Assembly (NCBI RefSeq): GCF_002007645.1
Contig: NZ_CP019791.1
Location: 3,402,593 to 3,466,592, forward strand
Direction of reading: 5' to 3'
Length of the DNA: 64,000 nucleotides
Origin: Anaerohalosphaera lusitana
GTDB lineage: Bacteria; Planctomycetota; Phycisphaerae; Sedimentisphaerales; Anaerohalosphaeraceae
Shown here: positions 14,674-48,195 of the stretch, piece after piece
Position numbering within the stretch: position 1 is the first letter of the stretch
Layout of the letters: each line of letters begins with the position of its first letter
Translations under genes and position numbers: made by a program
Notes under the pieces: model-generated
Told to the model about the DNA's origin: nothing
Database searches by the model: none
The model's input: the letters and a program-made list of their open reading frames with translations, nothing else

Positions 14674-14760
14674 CAAAGTCCGCCGAGAATGGACCCCGAT
14701 AAAGTTCCTTGGAGGCGAAGCTGTTAAATTCTGCGGCGGCTCAGTACGAATAGCCCGAAC
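14674..14760 (+). repeat. Dispersed intergenic repeat, copy A
   Basis: Begins AAGTCCGCCGAGAATGGACC and contains GCTGTTAAATTCTGC about 30 bases later. Related copies are at 25361-25449 and 47888-47966, all in the same orientation, with a possible short copy at 38445-38487. It lies between two convergent genes. No coding potential is evident. Confidence 0.65.
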
Positions 14761-23095: not shown

Positions 23096-23458
23096 CTACT
23101 TCTTGCCCATCTCCGCAGATGTCTCCGCCACCACATCCGTCGTGATCCCGCCCCTGGGCGTAAAACTCGCCGTGATCTTCATCCACCTCGGCTCACACCC
23201 AGCCGCAAGATCGTCCAGTATCTCGTTCGTCAGCCTCTCGTAAAATATACCCTTATCCCGGTAGCTCTGCATATAATACTTCAGCGCCTTCAGCTCCAAA
23301 CACTTCGCCTCGGGTATATACTCTATCGTTATCGTACCAAAATCCGGATGACCCGTCTTCGGACACACGCTCGTAAACTCCGGACAGCGTATCGTTATCG
23401 TGTAATCGCGTTCCGGACGCGGATTATCAAAGAATTCCAAAACCGGCTTATCTGACAT
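23096..23458 (-). CDS. queF: NADPH-dependent 7-cyano-7-deazaguanine (preQ0) reductase
   Basis: 120 residues, the short unimodular QueF form. Active-site Cys is in '[14 protein letters not shown]' (C32, with D39), and the QueF motif is '[15 protein letters not shown]'. The enzyme reduces preQ0 to preQ1 in queuosine synthesis. It is divergent from queC with only about 100 bp between the starts, so the two genes share a promoter region. No preQ1 riboswitch pattern was recognised there. Confidence 0.95.
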
Positions 23459-23562: not shown

Positions 23563-24264
23563 ATGTCTTCATCCACAAAAAAAGCTGTCGTCCTCCTCAG
23601 CGGCGGCCTCGACTCCGCAACCACCCTCGGCATAGCCCGAAACGAGGGTTTTGACTGCTATGCAATGACCTTCCGCTACGGCCAAAGACATAACGTCGAA
23701 GTGGAATGCGCCCGCCGCGTCGCAGCCTCGCTCGGCGTCGCCGAACACCGCATCATAGACATCGACCTCAAACAGTTCGGCCGCTCCGCCCTCACCGACG
23801 ACACCCTCGCAGTACCCAAGGACCGCGAAGACATCGACGACACCTCCGACATCCCCATCAGCTATGTCCCCGCCCGCAACACCATCTTCCTCAGCTACGC
23901 CCTCGCATGGGCCGAGGTCCTCGACGCATTCGACATCTTCATAGGCGTAAACGCAACAGACTACAGCGGATACCCAGACTGCCGCCCTGAATTCATCGAC
24001 GCATACGAAAAAATGGCCAACCTCGCCACCGCCGCAGCCGTCACCGGCACCCAAAAATACTCCATCCACACCCCAATAATCAAACTCTCCAAAGCCGACA
24101 TAATCAAAACCGGCACCTCCATCGGCGTCGACTACTCACTCACCCACTCCTGCTACGACCCCGACCCCGACAACAAACCCTGCGCCCGATGCGACTCCTG
24201 CAAACTGCGTCTCCGAGGCTTCCAGCAAGCAAACCTGACCGACCCAGTCCAATACGCCGACTAA
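23563..24264 (+). CDS. queC: 7-cyano-7-deazaguanine (preQ0) synthase
   Basis: Start taken at the ATG of [15 protein letters not shown] (AAGGGA upstream); the longer frame from 23464 adds 33 residues with no family character. 233 residues. PP-loop '[10 protein letters not shown]' and the C-terminal zinc-binding cysteines '[20 protein letters not shown]' identify QueC. It makes preQ0 from 7-carboxy-7-deazaguanine, the product of queE at 25529-26209. A SIR2-like gene on the other strand separates the two. Confidence 0.95.
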
Positions 24265-24277
24265 CTCTTTCATGGAA

Positions 24278-25234
24278 TTACTGAAGAACTACATGATCAT
24301 GCAAAAGCTGGTATACTGTTTTATTCTTGAAACGATCATCCAGTCTTGGCAATAACTTGTGAAAATGCTCATGCCCAACATGCTTGTCTTGATTTGCAAG
24401 GCCTAGAGAGGTCCCCCAAATTGTCAGATTTCTCTTTCCTTCTTTCGATCGCCGATCTTTTAGGTTTTTTAATCCAAGTCTTGTAAGGTTTTCAGGGTGA
24501 AATCCAAAACCAAGAATAATCGCCATTTCCGCTTCAATTAAAAGCGCCCTCGCTCTTTCAAATTCCCCATCTTCATCAGAAGCCTCATGTATGATTTTTA
24601 TGTGCTTGGCTGCTTCGTTGATGTGCTTTTGCTCTGCCTCAGAGTCAAACGGCACAACGCCTCCTCTATTCTGCCAAGGCAAATAACCTAGCTGGCCATG
24701 TACGTGAACAACCTCAATAGACCTTGCTTTCTCAGCAACTTCGTCACCACTCCTGCCGCAATTGTCATTCTTAAGAGCAGTATGGAGGAAATGCTCAAAC
24801 GACCTGTCGTAATTGAACGTTACCACAGATAATTGATTTTGATCAAACTCATCAAAGGGAGCATCCAAAGCGTTGTAGAGCTTATGGTACCAACTTTGCT
24901 GCACGGTCTTCAGATAAGATAAATTGATTTTATCAAAAAGAGCGGTTGTTTTTTCATACCCCAGAAGCCTTTTAGCTATGGCCCATTTCCCGATTTCAAG
25001 ATAATCTTCATGGCCACTTCTACCCAGCCAAGCATCAATTGATGATTGCCCAGACCTGGCGAATCGCTTGTAGAATTCTATAACCAAACCTTCGGGAAAA
25101 CTATGCCTGATAAAAGGCTCTCGGTCGTTATTTAAGTCATTTAAAATCTCTGCCTTTAGTCGCCCACCACTGGGAAATCCATAAGGCATGCTCGCACCGG
25201 CCCCAAGAACCAAAACAGTATTACGCTTGATCAT
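24278..25234 (-). CDS. SIR2-like domain protein (possible defence NADase)
   Basis: 318 residues from the ATG at 25234 (GGGGAG upstream). N-terminal nucleotide-binding loop 'VLVLGAGASMPYGFPSG', then 'VVTFNYDRSFEHFL' (F140-N141-Y142-D143) and 'VVHVHGQLGYLPW' (H177/H179), and a late 'AEMAIILGFGFHPEN'. This is the arrangement of the SIR2-like (SIR2_2 type) domain found in Thoeris, DSR and stand-alone anti-phage NADases. No partner domain or partner gene is present. It is AT-richer than flanking genes and sits between queC and queE on the opposite strand, so it was probably acquired. Defence activity is inference. Confidence 0.8.
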   Translation of the reverse strand: MIKRNTVLVLGAGASMPYGFPSGGRLKAEILNDLNNDREPFIRHSFPEGLVIEFYKRFARSGQSSIDAWLGRSGHEDYLEIGKWAIAKRLLGYEKTTALFDKINLSYLKTVQQSWYHKLYNALDAPFDEFDQNQLSVVTFNYDRSFEHFLHTALKNDNCGRSGDEVAEKARSIEVVHVHGQLGYLPWQNRGGVVPFDSEAEQKHINEAAKHIKIIHEASDEDGEFERARALLIEAEMAIILGFGFHPENLTRLGLKNLKDRRSKEGKRNLTIWGTSLGLANQDKHVGHEHFHKLLPRLDDRFKNKTVYQLLHDHVVLQ

Positions 25235-25360
25235 TTCTATTGCTCCCCTTTTTTTCAGTATCAACAACATTGACCAATTATCCTGAAAACGCAGCCGCAT
25301 TCAAAGAAATTTCGCCACAAAGGTTCTATTTTACTGCAAAACCAGCGGCAGAAAGTAACA

Positions 25361-25449
25361 GTCAACCGAGAATGGGCTATCCAAAAAGCTCGTCAGAGGT
25401 TGTGCTGTTAGTTCCTGCCGCGGCCCAGTTCTCAAACGAATGTAAGAAC
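25361..25449 (+). repeat. Dispersed intergenic repeat, copy B
   Basis: Contains CCGAGAATGG, then CCAAAAAGC, GCTGTTAGTTCCTGC and GCGGCC in the same order as copies A and C. It lies in the 294-bp gap (25235-25528) between the SIR2-like gene and queE, which holds no other recognised feature. Confidence 0.6.
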
Positions 25450-25528: not shown

Positions 25529-26209
25529 ATGATTATCAACGAAATATTCTACTGTCTCCAGGGCGAAGGCAAACTCGCCGGCACCCCCAGCGCACTGATA
25601 CGCCTGGCCGGCTGCCCCCTGCGCTGCCGATGGTGCGATACCAAATACGCCTGCCCGACAACAGCGGGCCAGCCGCGCACCCCCGAGCAAATACTCACTG
25701 AAATATCCGAATACCCAACCCGCCATGCCATAGTCACCGGCGGCGAACCACTCGCCCAGCAAGACACACCTCACCTCCTTCAGGCCCTCGAACACGCCGG
25801 CATGCACGTCACCATCGAAACCTGCGGCATCCACTACCACGAAAACATCCCCTGCGACCTCATGAGCATCAGCCCCAAGCTCTCCAACTCCACCCCCGAT
25901 GACCCAGAACTCGCCTCCCCGCACGACGCTGCACGCCTGTGCCCAGAAATACTCCAGAAACTGATCGACAACTACGACTACCAGCTAAAATTCGTCGTCG
26001 ACACCCCCGCAGACCTCGACGAGATCGCCGAACTGCTAGATTCTCTCAACAACGTCAACCCCTACAAAGTTTTCTTCATGCCCCAGGCCTCCACCCGCGA
26101 CGAATACCTGCAAAAATCGCAGCTTGTTGCCCAGATATGCGAAAAAACCGGCTTCAAAATGTCCCAGCGGCTCCACATCCTCCTCTACGACGGCCAAAAA
26201 GGCCGCTAG
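25529..26209 (+). CDS. queE: 7-carboxy-7-deazaguanine synthase (radical SAM)
   Basis: 226 residues. N-terminal 'IFYCLQGEGKLAGTPSALIRLAGCPLRCRWCDTKYA' holds the radical-SAM CxxxCxxC cluster motif and the QueE-specific 'QGEG'. 'VTGGEPL', 'VTIETCGIHY' and 'MSISPKLSNS' follow. The enzyme ring-contracts 6-carboxytetrahydropterin in queuosine/7-deazaguanine synthesis. queC and queF lie 1.3-2 kb upstream; queD is not in view. Confidence 0.95.
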   Translation: MIINEIFYCLQGEGKLAGTPSALIRLAGCPLRCRWCDTKYACPTTAGQPRTPEQILTEISEYPTRHAIVTGGEPLAQQDTPHLLQALEHAGMHVTIETCGIHYHENIPCDLMSISPKLSNSTPDDPELASPHDAARLCPEILQKLIDNYDYQLKFVVDTPADLDEIAELLDSLNNVNPYKVFFMPQASTRDEYLQKSQLVAQICEKTGFKMSQRLHILLYDGQKGR

Positions 26210-26788: not shown

Positions 26789-26874
26789 GCCCAGGTGGCG
26801 GAATAGGCAGACGCGTCAGGTTGAGGGCCTGATGGGGTTAATACCTCGTGCTGGTTCGACTCCAGTCCTGGGCA
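26789..26874 (+). tRNA. tRNA-Leu (anticodon GAG)
   Basis: 86 nt cloverleaf. Acceptor stem GCCCAGG/CCTGGGC with discriminator A. The anticodon stem-loop TCAGG-TTGAGGG-CCTGA puts GAG at 26823-26825. A long variable arm (class II) is present, and the T arm contains GGTTCGACTCC. The 3' CCA is not encoded. A terminator follows at once. Confidence 0.96.
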
Positions 26875-43984: not shown

Positions 43985-46228
43985 ATGGCAACCAAATCGT
44001 ACCGTGCCCGGATCCTCACCGACTCCCGCCTCGCCGCCGCACTCGATCGCACCCACGTCGTCTTTGTAGAATCGCTCAAGCAGATGATCAATACATACCT
44101 CCGCATGCAGAACGGCAAATTCGGCCCCGACCATAAGAAGCTCGCCCAGATAATGCTCTCCCGCTCCAACACTTTTGCCCACGGCGTTATGGACCAGATA
44201 ACCCGCGACCAACCCACCTCGACACTGGACGAAGAATGGACCGACCTCGCCCGTCGCATACACAAAACCACGGGCCCTCTCTTCCTCCAGGCCGAACGCT
44301 TCGCAACCGTCAAGAACCGCGCTATACACACAAAATCTCGCGGCAAGGTCATCCCTTCTCCAGAAACACTCGCCGTACCAGCCAAATTCTGGCACCAGGT
44401 CTGCGACAGCGCCTCCGCCTACATCCGCTCAAACCGAGAACTCATGCAGCAGTGGCGGAAGGACCGCGCAGCCTGGCTCAAAGACAAAAACGAATGGCAG
44501 CAAAAGCACCCCGAATTCATGCAGTTCTATAACGGCCCATATCAAAACTTCCTCAAGCTATGCGATGACGACCGCATCACCTCCCAGCTCGCCGCCGAAC
44601 AGCAGCCTACCGCCTCCAAAAACAACCGCCCCCGTAAGACCGGCAAACGCTTCGCCCGCTGGCACCTCTGGTACAAATGGCTCAGCGAAAACCCCGAAAT
44701 AATAGAATGGCGAAACAAGGCCTCCGCCTCAGACTTCAAAACCGTCACCGACGACGTTCGCAAACAGATAATCACCAAATACCCCCAGCAGAACAAATAC
44801 ATTACCCGCCTGCTCGACTGGCTCGAAGACAACAACCCCGAACTCAAAACCCTCGAAAACCTACGCCGAACATACGTCAAAAAATTCGACTCCTTCAAAA
44901 GACCCCCGACCCTCACGCTCCCCTCGCCGTACAGACACCCCTACTGGTTCACCATGGAACTCGACCAGTTCTACAAAAAAGCAGACTTCGAAAATGGAAC
45001 CATCCAACTCCTGCTCATAGACGAGGACGACGACGGCAACTGGTTCTTCAACTGGATGCCCGCCAGCCTCAAGCCCGACCCCCGACTCGTCCCCTCATGG
45101 CGCGCCGAAACATTCGAAACCGAAGGCCGCTTTCCGCCATATCTCGGCGGAAAGATCGGCAAAAAGCTCTCACGCCCCGCACCGACCGACGCCGAACGAA
45201 AAGCAGGCATCGCCGGCGCAAAGCTCATGATCAAGAACAACCGCAGCGAACTGCTCTTCACGGTCTTCGAACAGGATTGCCCGCCGCGTGTCAAATGGGC
45301 AAAAACCAAAAACCGAAAATGCCCCGCCGACAACGCCTTCTCCTCCGACGGCAAAACACGCAAACCCCTGCGCATACTTTCAATCGACCTCGGCATCCGT
45401 CACATCGGCGCATTCGCTCTCACACAGGGCACACGAAACGACTCCGCATGGCAAACCGAATCACTCAAAAAAGGCATCATAAACAGCCCCTCAATACCCC
45501 CGCTCCGTCAGGTCCGCCGCCACGACTACGACCTCAAACGAAAACGCCGCCGCCACGGAAAACCCGTAAAGGGCCAGCGATCGAACGCAAACCTTCAGGC
45601 CCACAGAACCAACATGGCACAGGACCGCTTCAAGAAAGGCGCATCCGCCATCGTCTCACTCGCCCGCGAACACTCCGCCGACCTCATCCTGTTCGAAAAT
45701 CTCCATAGCCTCAAATTCTCCGCATTTGACGAACGCTGGATGAACCGCCAGCTCCGCGACATGAACCGACGACACATCGTCGAACTCGTCAGCGAACAGG
45801 CCCCCGAATTCGGCATCACCGTCAAGGACGACATTAATCCCTGGATGACAAGCCGCATATGCTCCAACTGCAACCTCCCCGGCTTCCGCTTCTCCATGAA
45901 AAAGAAAAACCCCTACCGCGAAAAACTCCCTCGCGAAAAATGCACCGACTTCGGCTACCCCGTCTGGGAACCCGGCGGCCACCTCTTCCGATGCCCCCAC
46001 TGCGATCATCGCGTAAACGCCGACATAAACGCAGCCGCAAATCTCGCCAACAAATTCTTCGGCCTCGGCTACTGGAACAACGGCCTCAAATACGACGCCG
46101 AAACCAAAACTTTCACCGTCCACACAGACAAAAAAACACCGCCCCTCATCTTCAAGCCTCGACCCCAATTCGACCTCTGGGCGGACTCGGTAAAAACTCG
46201 CAAACAGCTCGGCCCCGATCCATTCTGA
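43985..46228 (+). CDS. Compact type V (Cas12b/Cas12g-like) CRISPR effector nuclease
   Basis: 747 residues, directly upstream of a CRISPR array. RuvC catalytic set intact: D468 in 'LRILSIDLGIRHIGAFAL', E571 in 'LILFENLHSLKF' and D680 in 'RVNADINAAANLANKFF'. A C4 zinc ribbon (C626/C629, 'ICSNC'; C670/C673, 'CPHC') lies between RuvC-II and RuvC-III. The N-terminus 'MATKSYRARI' and the 'FTHEV'-like 'FAHGVMD' recall Cas12b, and 'PTLTLPSPYRHPYWFTMEL' followed by 'PYLGGKIGKKL' parallels the pre-RuvC part of Cas12b. The size and the zinc ribbon recall Cas12g; Cas12b is typically about 1,100-1,300 residues. A lysine/arginine-rich segment (about 516-535) lies between RuvC-I and -II. Subtype is from memory of family sequences, not a search. 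No cas1/cas2/cas4 nearby. Codon use matches the neighbours, so it is not a very recent arrival. Confidence 0.88.
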   Translation: MATKSYRARILTDSRLAAALDRTHVVFVESLKQMINTYLRMQNGKFGPDHKKLAQIMLSRSNTFAHGVMDQITRDQPTSTLDEEWTDLARRIHKTTGPLFLQAERFATVKNRAIHTKSRGKVIPSPETLAVPAKFWHQVCDSASAYIRSNRELMQQWRKDRAAWLKDKNEWQQKHPEFMQFYNGPYQNFLKLCDDDRITSQLAAEQQPTASKNNRPRKTGKRFARWHLWYKWLSENPEIIEWRNKASASDFKTVTDDVRKQIITKYPQQNKYITRLLDWLEDNNPELKTLENLRRTYVKKFDSFKRPPTLTLPSPYRHPYWFTMELDQFYKKADFENGTIQLLLIDEDDDGNWFFNWMPASLKPDPRLVPSWRAETFETEGRFPPYLGGKIGKKLSRPAPTDAERKAGIAGAKLMIKNNRSELLFTVFEQDCPPRVKWAKTKNRKCPADNAFSSDGKTRKPLRILSIDLGIRHIGAFALTQGTRNDSAWQTESLKKGIINSPSIPPLRQVRRHDYDLKRKRRRHGKPVKGQRSNANLQAHRTNMAQDRFKKGASAIVSLAREHSADLILFENLHSLKFSAFDERWMNRQLRDMNRRHIVELVSEQAPEFGITVKDDINPWMTSRICSNCNLPGFRFSMKKKNPYREKLPREKCTDFGYPVWEPGGHLFRCPHCDHRVNADINAAANLANKFFGLGYWNNGLKYDAETKTFTVHTDKKTPPLIFKPRPQFDLWADSVKTRKQLGPDPF

Positions 46229-46666: not shown

Positions 46667-47550
46667 GGCGCAACCCGCACACAACCGCGAATGGACACCA
46701 GTCTCCAAATTAAGATATTAGTGTCTGTTACGGCGCAACCCGCACACAACCGCGAATGGACACACTCAATCAACTTCATAAACTTCTTCTGACTCTCAGG
46801 CGCAACCCGCACACAACCGCGAATGGACACAACTCCCGGGCATACTCGACATCCGAACCCCCAAGGCGCAACCCGCACACAACCGCGAATGGACACACAA
46901 ACTGTTTCGCTACCCTCACCGCCCCCCTCATGGCGCAACCCGCACACAACCGCGAATGGACACGGTACTTGATCCATGACAACCTCACCAAATTAGAGGC
47001 GCAACCCGCACACAACCGCGAATGGACACTATCAAAGGCGCGAATCTCTCGTTATTGTCTTCGGCGCAACCCGCACATAACCGCGAATGGACACCTATGT
47101 GATTTTTCGCGATCTCTCGCGTTATTCGGCGCAACCCGCACACAACCGCGAATGGACACAAGTTGATGTTAGCAGTACGCACACACCGAGCACGGCGCAA
47201 CCCGCACACAACCGCGAATGGACACGCCAGCTTATGACAGCGAGGCGAAAAAGTCTGAGGCGCAACCCGCACACAACCGCGAATGGACACGTTTTGTGCT
47301 CGTGCCATAAACCTAGTATACCTGGCGCAACCCGCACACAACCGCGAATGGACACCTGTTGCGCACAGTGTACTTAGAATCACGGTGAGGCGCAACCCGC
47401 ACACAACCGCGAATGGACACCTGAACAACATGGTATCTAAATGGTATCTAATAGGCGCAACCCGCACACAACCGCGAATGGACACCTGAACAACATGGTA
47501 TCTAAATGGTATCTAATAGGCGCAACCCGCACACAACCGCGAACAAACCC
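46667..47550 (+). CRISPR. CRISPR array, 14 repeats of 32 bp, 13 spacers of 33-35 bp
   Basis: The repeat starts GGCGCAACCCGCACAC and ends CGCGAATGGACAC. Repeat starts: 46667, 46732, 46799, 46865, 46932, 46998, 47063, 47128, 47194, 47259, 47324, 47389, 47454, 47519. Repeat 7 has one C-to-T change. The last repeat keeps the first 25 bases but its end is GAACAAACCC instead of GAATGGACAC, which marks the distal end and puts the leader on the effector side. The ...GGACAC 3' end resembles the ...GGCAC end of Cas12b repeats, consistent with + strand transcription. Spacers 12 and 13 are identical. All 'proteins' predicted across it, on either strand, are translations of the repeats. Confidence 0.98.
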
Positions 47551-47713: not shown

Positions 47714-47887
47714 TGTCAAGGCGAGGAAACCCATCACGGTTTAACAACACAAACCCCCATGGTTGAAATCCACCGACACACACCAAAATGTCAAACCGAA
47801 AATATCCCATCACAAAACCCGAAAACCGGACCAATCCTCTACTCCCACCTCCAATTCCCGAACCCACCAACCGCATAACATTTAAAT

Positions 47888-47966
47888 GAAAAGTCCGCCG
47901 AGAATGGACCTACCAAAAAGCACGCCTAATGCGCGGCTGTTATATTCTGCCCCGGCCTAACGGACG
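47888..47966 (+). repeat. Dispersed intergenic repeat, copy C
   Basis: Starts AAAAGTCCGCCGAGAATGG, contains CCAAAAAGCACG as in copy B and GCTGTTATATTCTGC as in copy A. Confidence 0.65.
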
Positions 47967-48195
47967 CACGACCAACACCACACCACCTACGAACGACCAA
48001 CCACCCGGCCAACCCACGCCGTCACCAAAAAACAAATCGTCACACTCTGCGCGCACTCCAGGCAATCGCCACAACCAACTTCCGGAATACCACCGAACAA
48101 AAGAGCCCCACCCGGTAAGCAGACCCTTCCCTGCAAAATCAGATACCCATCAGAGAGAACAAACCGCCTATAAACGTGCGAGCAAAAAAGCGTAT

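Follow-up and report, generated by a model that had tools for sequence, protein, structure and literature searches.

The gene at positions 24278 to 25234 of the window, the whole stretch of 64,000 nucleotides of Anaerohalosphaera lusitana DNA that was analysed, is probably a horizontally acquired one-gene NADase of the abortive-infection type. It encodes a SIR2-like single-domain protein of 318 aa, which adds a solitary member with a variant motif to an enzyme class that is already known. Bacterial immunity has major effectors in the SIR2 NADases, and those studied come with a sensor domain or with a partner. A widespread single-domain SIR2 lineage that travels alone raises the question of how the enzyme is kept off and then switched on. 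What makes the gene interesting is this lone-gene life style together with the shifted histidine, not the queuosine genes around it.

The gene and its insertion between queC and queE

The open reading frame, which is also covered by profile matches and a predicted fold, is intact on the minus strand, and its product begins with MIKRNTVLVLGAGASMPYGFPSGG. The gene starts with an ATG at 25234, has an AGGGGAG stretch 8 nt upstream, and is a single copy in its 4.25-Mb genome according to a genome search. A sigma-70-like promoter match is found upstream on the same strand (25277–25304), a match to the consensus only, in a region with 4 such sites compared to a mean of 1.6 in shuffled sequence. The GC content of 0.426 is the lowest among the 36 open reading frames with 200 aa or more that were picked in the window, as compared to 0.587 for queC and 0.580 for queE, and the difference is larger at third codon positions, 0.395 as compared to 0.748 and 0.736. 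The original prediction described an AT-richer gene on the opposite strand between queC and queE, and this is what we find.

On the left side, queF (23096–23458, minus strand) and queC (23563–24264, plus strand) precede the gene, and queC converges with it, with 13 bp between the stop codons. On the right side, queE (25529–26209, plus strand) is divergent, with 294 bp between the starts; all three were assigned by both Pfam and NCBIfam. A tRNA gene at 26789–26874 (Rfam RF00005, 50.5 bits) is located just past queE and is a possible nearby integration point.

In the relatives searched, counting the window's own genome, queE was found in 89 of 96 genomes and queC in 82 of 96; these relatives include no second genome from the window's own genus. 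The two genes are within 6 kb on one contig in 52 of the other genomes, and here the gap between the matches, read by hand from the tables, did not exceed 200 bp in 45 of the 52, with a median of 39 bp for all of them. None of the 52 has a SIR2 gene between queC and queE. A profile search of 20 loci gave SIR2 matches in two only (L083 and L084), outside the interval in both. The tight spacing in most relatives and the lack of SIR2 at this spot in all of them imply that the queC-queE pair is ancestral and that the SIR2 gene entered it in this lineage, as was originally proposed. Conservation of the gene at the same spot across relatives had been named beforehand as the observation that would speak against this reading; it was searched for and seen in none of the 52, so the reading stands.

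The queC-queE interval is a recurrent insertion place. It holds differing cargo in seven of the 52 relatives (G014, G017, G043, G045, G048, G063 and G079; L083, L085–L090): a MerR/GyrI-like regulator in G014, a PemK/MazF-like toxin and a DUF6941 protein in G043, a protein without Pfam family in G017, and, from a reading of the translations, longer inserts in G045, G048, G063 and G079. Cellulose-synthesis-like genes are among the cargo of these seven interrupted intervals.

Family assignment and predicted fold

The protein matches Pfam SIR2_2 (PF13289) with 19.8 bits (E 9e-4), which is below the gathering score of 24.5 bits; some family members exceed this score, for instance those of G002 (30.5 bits) and G012 (24.9 bits). 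The PADLOC SIR2 model PDLC04087 matches the window protein with E 6e-10 and was matched by all 16 members of the alignment. The nearest PDB sequence is the KomC NADase (E 1.3e-5). NCBIfam has no family for the protein, and the PHROGs search returned a single match, with E 0.11.

An AF2 model was made from the 16 aligned sequences (pLDDT 89.6, pTM 0.90). When this predicted model was compared to known structures with VIA-align 2, the best match was PsSIR2, with a Z score of 15.5 and an rmsd of 4.1 over 255 residues, followed by SIR2/HerA (15.3), KomC (14.2), SPARSA (13.7), ThsA (13.5) and DSR2 (12.6); the canonical sirtuins reached at most 12.7 (Sirt5 and CobB, both 12.7). Foldseek listed the same families, with a best E of 5.6e-6, and the viral fold library BFVD gave no match at E≤0.001; a family missing from a fold-search list was not counted as contrary evidence. 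The window protein is thus predicted by the model to have the SIR2 Rossmann fold. The predicted fold and the motifs also agree with the original suggestion of a SIR2-like protein of the anti-phage NADase type.

There is one Cys in the window protein, and the zinc pattern CxxC...CxxC was found in 0 of the 107 rows of the family alignment, which implies that the zinc module of the deacylases is absent. According to the part of PMC12700824 available to us, SIR2_2 proteins lack this module, and canonical sirtuins need it for deacetylation. With the Cys4 zinc module missing, the window protein does not match a sirtuin protein deacylase. The 107 family proteins are single-domain, and nearly all are 288–421 aa long; three are shorter fragments.

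The conserved histidine

The GAGAS, FNYD and HGQ motifs that were first noticed in the translation could all be located, as GAGAS at residues 11–15, TFNYD at 139–143 and HVHGQ at 177–181. The GAGAS NAD-binding loop is encoded at 25190–25204 (minus strand), and G11, A12 and G13 are present in 106 of the 107 family rows. The stretch N141-Y-D-R144 of the TFNYDR motif (24803–24814, minus strand) contains the catalytic Asn by homology, and N141 and D143 are invariant in all 107 rows. The third motif, H177-V-H179-G180 (24695–24706, minus strand), is the one where the family is unusual. His 177 is present in 102 of 107 rows, and at position 179, the canonical catalytic position, 65 rows have Tyr, 39 have His, 1 has Phe and 2 have a gap. 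At positions 177 and 179, the 80 cellular rows include 42 of the type H..Y and 35 of the type H..H, and the 26 viral rows 21 and 2, respectively. The window protein, with HVHG, has kept both histidines.

In a global profile alignment of the family and seven SIR2_2 proteins, the canonical catalytic His corresponds to residue 179 and not to residue 177 (probability 97.5, E 2.4e-11); the local profile alignment spans residues 3–34 only, and the register of the HG motif rests on the global run. The seven reference proteins were taken from relatives and all have KLHG, HLHG or YLHG. They are seven of the 11 proteins with a GAG motif that were found; L244, L248, L250 and L260 were left out because they had no clear single HG motif or another motif order, were likely to belong to this family, or were short. 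Two of the seven (HLHG) also have the earlier His, so a His at position 177 is by itself not unique to the window family. Judging from the aligned sequences, what is unusual is that the His at 177 is kept while the canonical position varies. His and Tyr have replaced each other at position 179 at least 16 times on a tree of 103 rows.

The HG motif is considered to be absolutely conserved in SIR2 domains, and NG is presented as a new variant, in the part of the Avs5 study (PMC12931631) available to us. No report of an HxYG variant was found in the titles and abstracts of the SIR2 literature searched. It is conceivable, if rather doubtful as a whole, that the family forms a lineage of its own among the SIR2 immune effectors, with a single gene per system. 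In such a lineage the catalytic His would have shifted upstream by two residues (H-x-[H/Y]-G compared to x-x-H-G) and the canonical His would now be optional, and the gene may need neither sensor domain nor partner and may move alone between bacterial phyla and phages. With Tyr in place of His at the canonical position and a near-invariant His two residues from it, the family offers a natural experiment on how SIR2 enzymes work. Annotation by the HG motif or by the Pfam cut-off would miss or discount many of the family's genes.

Distribution among bacteria, phages and plasmids

The family is patchy and spread over many phyla. Of 97 relatives, 18 have a member (19 of 98 when the window's own genome is counted), and a profile search at E≤1e-25 detected the family in 19 of the 392 others in a sample of the phylum. 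A scan of GTDB contigs gave 286 stretches with the pattern, 235 of which encode relatives; the best 80 of these 235 are the cellular loci analysed here, and they come from at least 20 phyla. The phylum labels change 33 times on a quick tree of 104 rows, as compared to a minimum of 19 and a mean of 44.1 after shuffling; 47 of the 97 inner branches are weak, and the changes show mixing and are not a count of transfers.

In IMG/VR, 26 of 54 stretches encode SIR2 relatives. Several of these viral contigs carry phage genes, such as a tape-measure gene (L213), both terminase subunits (L215), a portal and a major head protein (L219), a virion protein and DnaB (L238), or a portal, a head protease and a terminase (L227). 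In L214 a DNA helicase was the sole match, and in L224 the gene tested matched nothing. A tblastn search with a single query found no relative in 50,697 phage records, and gave 14 distant matches to Rhizobium and Agrobacterium plasmids.

Neighbours of the family members

We clustered 976 neighbours from 107 loci, taking at most six genes per side, and saw no recurrent partner gene. No cluster occurs in more than 8 of the 107 loci, and a conserved partner was therefore rejected; the largest cluster, in 8 loci, consists of response regulators, whose distances vary. The upstream gene is on the same strand and at most 60 bp away in 29 of 75 cases, and such genes include the housekeeping genes lpxB, gcvH, kdsB and rsfS (LpxB and GCV_H by Pfam, the others partly from translations). 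The order hppA-rsfS-SIR2, with names from reading translations, is common to L011 (46–2463) and L016 (1327–3425), which come from genomes of two families, and suggests some stable vertical inheritance.

Defence-like company does occur, though with no regularity. About 0.4 kb from the SIR2 member in L008 there is a CRISPR-like array of ten repeat units, and the SIR2 member adjoins an NTase/HepT-like pair in L007, a Gp49/HTH pair in L017 and an HTH gene in L003. Three loci, L165 (9079–9582), L202 (8990–10018) and L227 (8961–9434), have a gene of a TIR cluster directly downstream and in the same orientation. The one in L165 is a TIR_2 protein that matches ThsB_TIR, and the three may be Thoeris-like pairs without a SLOG or macro domain.

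PADLOC was run at E≤1e-8 on 142 of the 150 nearest neighbours and on 61 of the 101 far genes, and gave 224 models for the former set and 7 for the latter. Of the genes left out, 8 near and 40 far, most were cut by contig ends, were duplicates from near-identical loci, or were dropped for list length. Many PADLOC models can match one protein, and models of the type I specificity subunit fill much of the 25 of 224 that were listed. It appears that few proteins are behind the neighbour matches, and we therefore do not claim a defence island; enrichment around the family is weak at best.

Comparison with known SIR2 systems

The named SIR2 systems are all defined by partners, and the window protein has none of these. 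Its nearest kin by class are the SIR2_2 or 'SIRim' sirtuins (ThsA, DSR1/2, FAM118), which, in the part of PMC12700824 available to us, have the same Rossmann SIR2 fold without the zinc module and share the motifs GAGxS and xxNxD (GAGAS and TFNYD in the window protein). Unlike these, the window family is one domain of about 300 aa without a sensor domain, has H or Y at the HG position, and has an extra near-invariant His three residues before the Gly. In Avs5, as far as the accessible part of PMC12931631 goes, NG replaces HG, whereas the window family has YG with a His two residues upstream.

The highest fold scores were those to SIR2-HerA (Nezha/GAO_19; Z 15.5 and 15.3), and the window gene has no HerA-like neighbour. 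KomC of KomBC is likewise a single-domain SIR2 NADase (Z 14.2 to the model of the window protein), but according to the titles of its structure entries it acts with a HAM-type partner and dITP, and no such neighbour is present at the window gene. The window copy does not match SIR2-HerA, SPARSA or KomBC, as no HerA, pAgo or HAM-type gene adjoins it. Thoeris ThsA has the same SIR2 NADase fold (Z 13.5), but the window protein has no SLOG or macro domain and no adjoining TIR gene; with a single domain of 318 aa, and queC and queE as neighbours, it does not match Thoeris. DSR1/DSR2, proteins of about 1000 aa with a long C-terminal sensor domain, do not fit the length of the window protein and of its family.

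Possible functions of the gene

The reading that we favour for the window gene, a horizontally acquired abortive-infection NADase, is drawn from several lines of evidence. The best fold matches are to anti-phage SIR2 proteins, the PADLOC SIR2 model matches, and KomC is the nearest sequence in the PDB. There is no zinc pattern, the presence of the family is patchy over at least 20 phyla, and the gene was inserted into a queC-queE pair. Other members are found on phage or prophage contigs, and some have TIR genes, a CRISPR array, or NTase/HepT-like or Gp49/HTH pairs as neighbours. From this we infer that the window protein has NADase activity and acts against phages. Infection would activate the enzyme, NAD+ would be destroyed, and the outcome would be abortive; that phage-induced assembly could be the switch of a one-domain enzyme is a guess. 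The gene would have landed between queC and queE by a chance of insertion. The mechanism literature that we consulted in part (PMC10973363, PMC11559045 and PMC12931631) includes the Nezha SIR2, where N168A or H227A is reported in PMC11559045 to lose immunity. Against the defence reading, the protein has neither sensor domain nor partner gene, unlike the characterised SIR2 systems compared; the majority of direct neighbours are no defence genes, and the order hppA-rsfS-SIR2 is shared by genomes of two families; and neither the tblastn search of the 50,697 phage records nor BFVD at E≤0.001 gave a match.

The gene could also encode a housekeeping or stress enzyme that consumes NAD, for instance in ADP-ribosyl transfer or NAD signalling, and that has spread horizontally without a role in phage defence. 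Many neighbours are housekeeping genes, and the close same-strand upstream genes in 29 of 75 cases look as if the family members ride in host operons, like the order retained in two families. Such a function is nevertheless unlikely, with just 18 of the 97 relatives and 19 of the 392 genomes of the phylum sample carrying the gene, with members on phage contigs, and with anti-phage NADases as the top fold matches. The 26 members on viral contigs and the 14 plasmid records with distant members, together with the TIR neighbours and the toxin-antitoxin-like genes beside some members, could also be taken to mean that the protein is the toxin half of a toxin-antitoxin-like module, or part of an inter-element exclusion module of phages and plasmids, that excludes competitors and does not serve the host. 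We find this quite improbable, since no partner recurs beside the gene and no mobile-element genes adjoin the window copy.

A function tied to 7-deazaguanine, which had been raised as a possibility because of the genes around it, did not hold up. In this reading the protein would use or protect the pathway, for queuosine in tRNA or for modified DNA, and would be selected at this spot. Its position between queC and queE is in favour of it, but the spot is common to none of the 52 relatives and the gene is on the strand opposite to queC and queE. Apart from the window, none of the 80 cellular loci has a homologue of queC, queE or queF in its flanks (at most 8 kb, many shorter), and 1 of the 26 viral loci does. 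A TGT search found one TGT-family gene in the genome, and with queF present the pathway looks like ordinary tRNA queuosine. On the absence from the 80 flanks, the single TGT gene and the queC-queE spacing in relatives, we rejected a 7-deazaguanine partnership as the main reading, and regard it as hardly credible. In the abortive-infection reading the place between the queuosine genes is incidental, and queuosine synthesis would play no part.

Three loci do have SIR2 members and 7-deazaguanine genes close to each other, and can be counted in favour of such a link. In G063 and G086 (L083 5965–6954 and L084 4820–5791) the SIR2 members and queC are separated by about 3 and 8 kb, and the gene settings differ; in L084 the SIR2 gene separates gcvH from the gcvP genes. 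This closeness looks more than chance, though the 10-kb limit between SIR2 and queC was set after both relatives had been seen and no probability is given. The third is the phage contig L227 (2677–14780; IMGVR_UViG_3300022666_000306), which carries a DNA methyltransferase, a queuine-transglycosylase-like gene (phrog_887), folE, queE and queD, and where the SIR2 gene and the TIR-cluster gene form a defence-like pair beside the 7-deazaguanine genes. With low confidence, we take all three to be coincidence or effects of defence spots.

The dispersed repeat and the type V system

A copy of a dispersed repeat had been pointed out beside the gene at 25361–25449. The copy is real, but it spans approximately 25345–25432, in the divergent intergenic region between the SIR2-like gene and queE, with hairpin arms at 25345–25361 and 25405–25421, and it is a diverged copy of a repeat of about 80 bp. 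Its best matches in the window are about 70% identical (47889–47957 and 14677–14745), and a genome search with it found one place, at 73%. When the window copy at 47860–47990 was used as the query, at least 40 genomic copies were found (40 of 59 candidates scored). The core is strongly conserved over 33 aligned copies, and the one beside the SIR2-like gene is among the most diverged of them. Rfam has no family for the repeat at gathering score, and nothing links it to movement of the SIR2-like gene.

The type V system that was said to be in the same window is present as well. It was possible to identify a Cas12b-like effector of 747 aa at 43985–46228 (PADLOC Cas12b, 1248.7 bits, full model), and after this gene there is a repeat-spacer array at approximately 46798–47543 with a spacing of about 65 bp.
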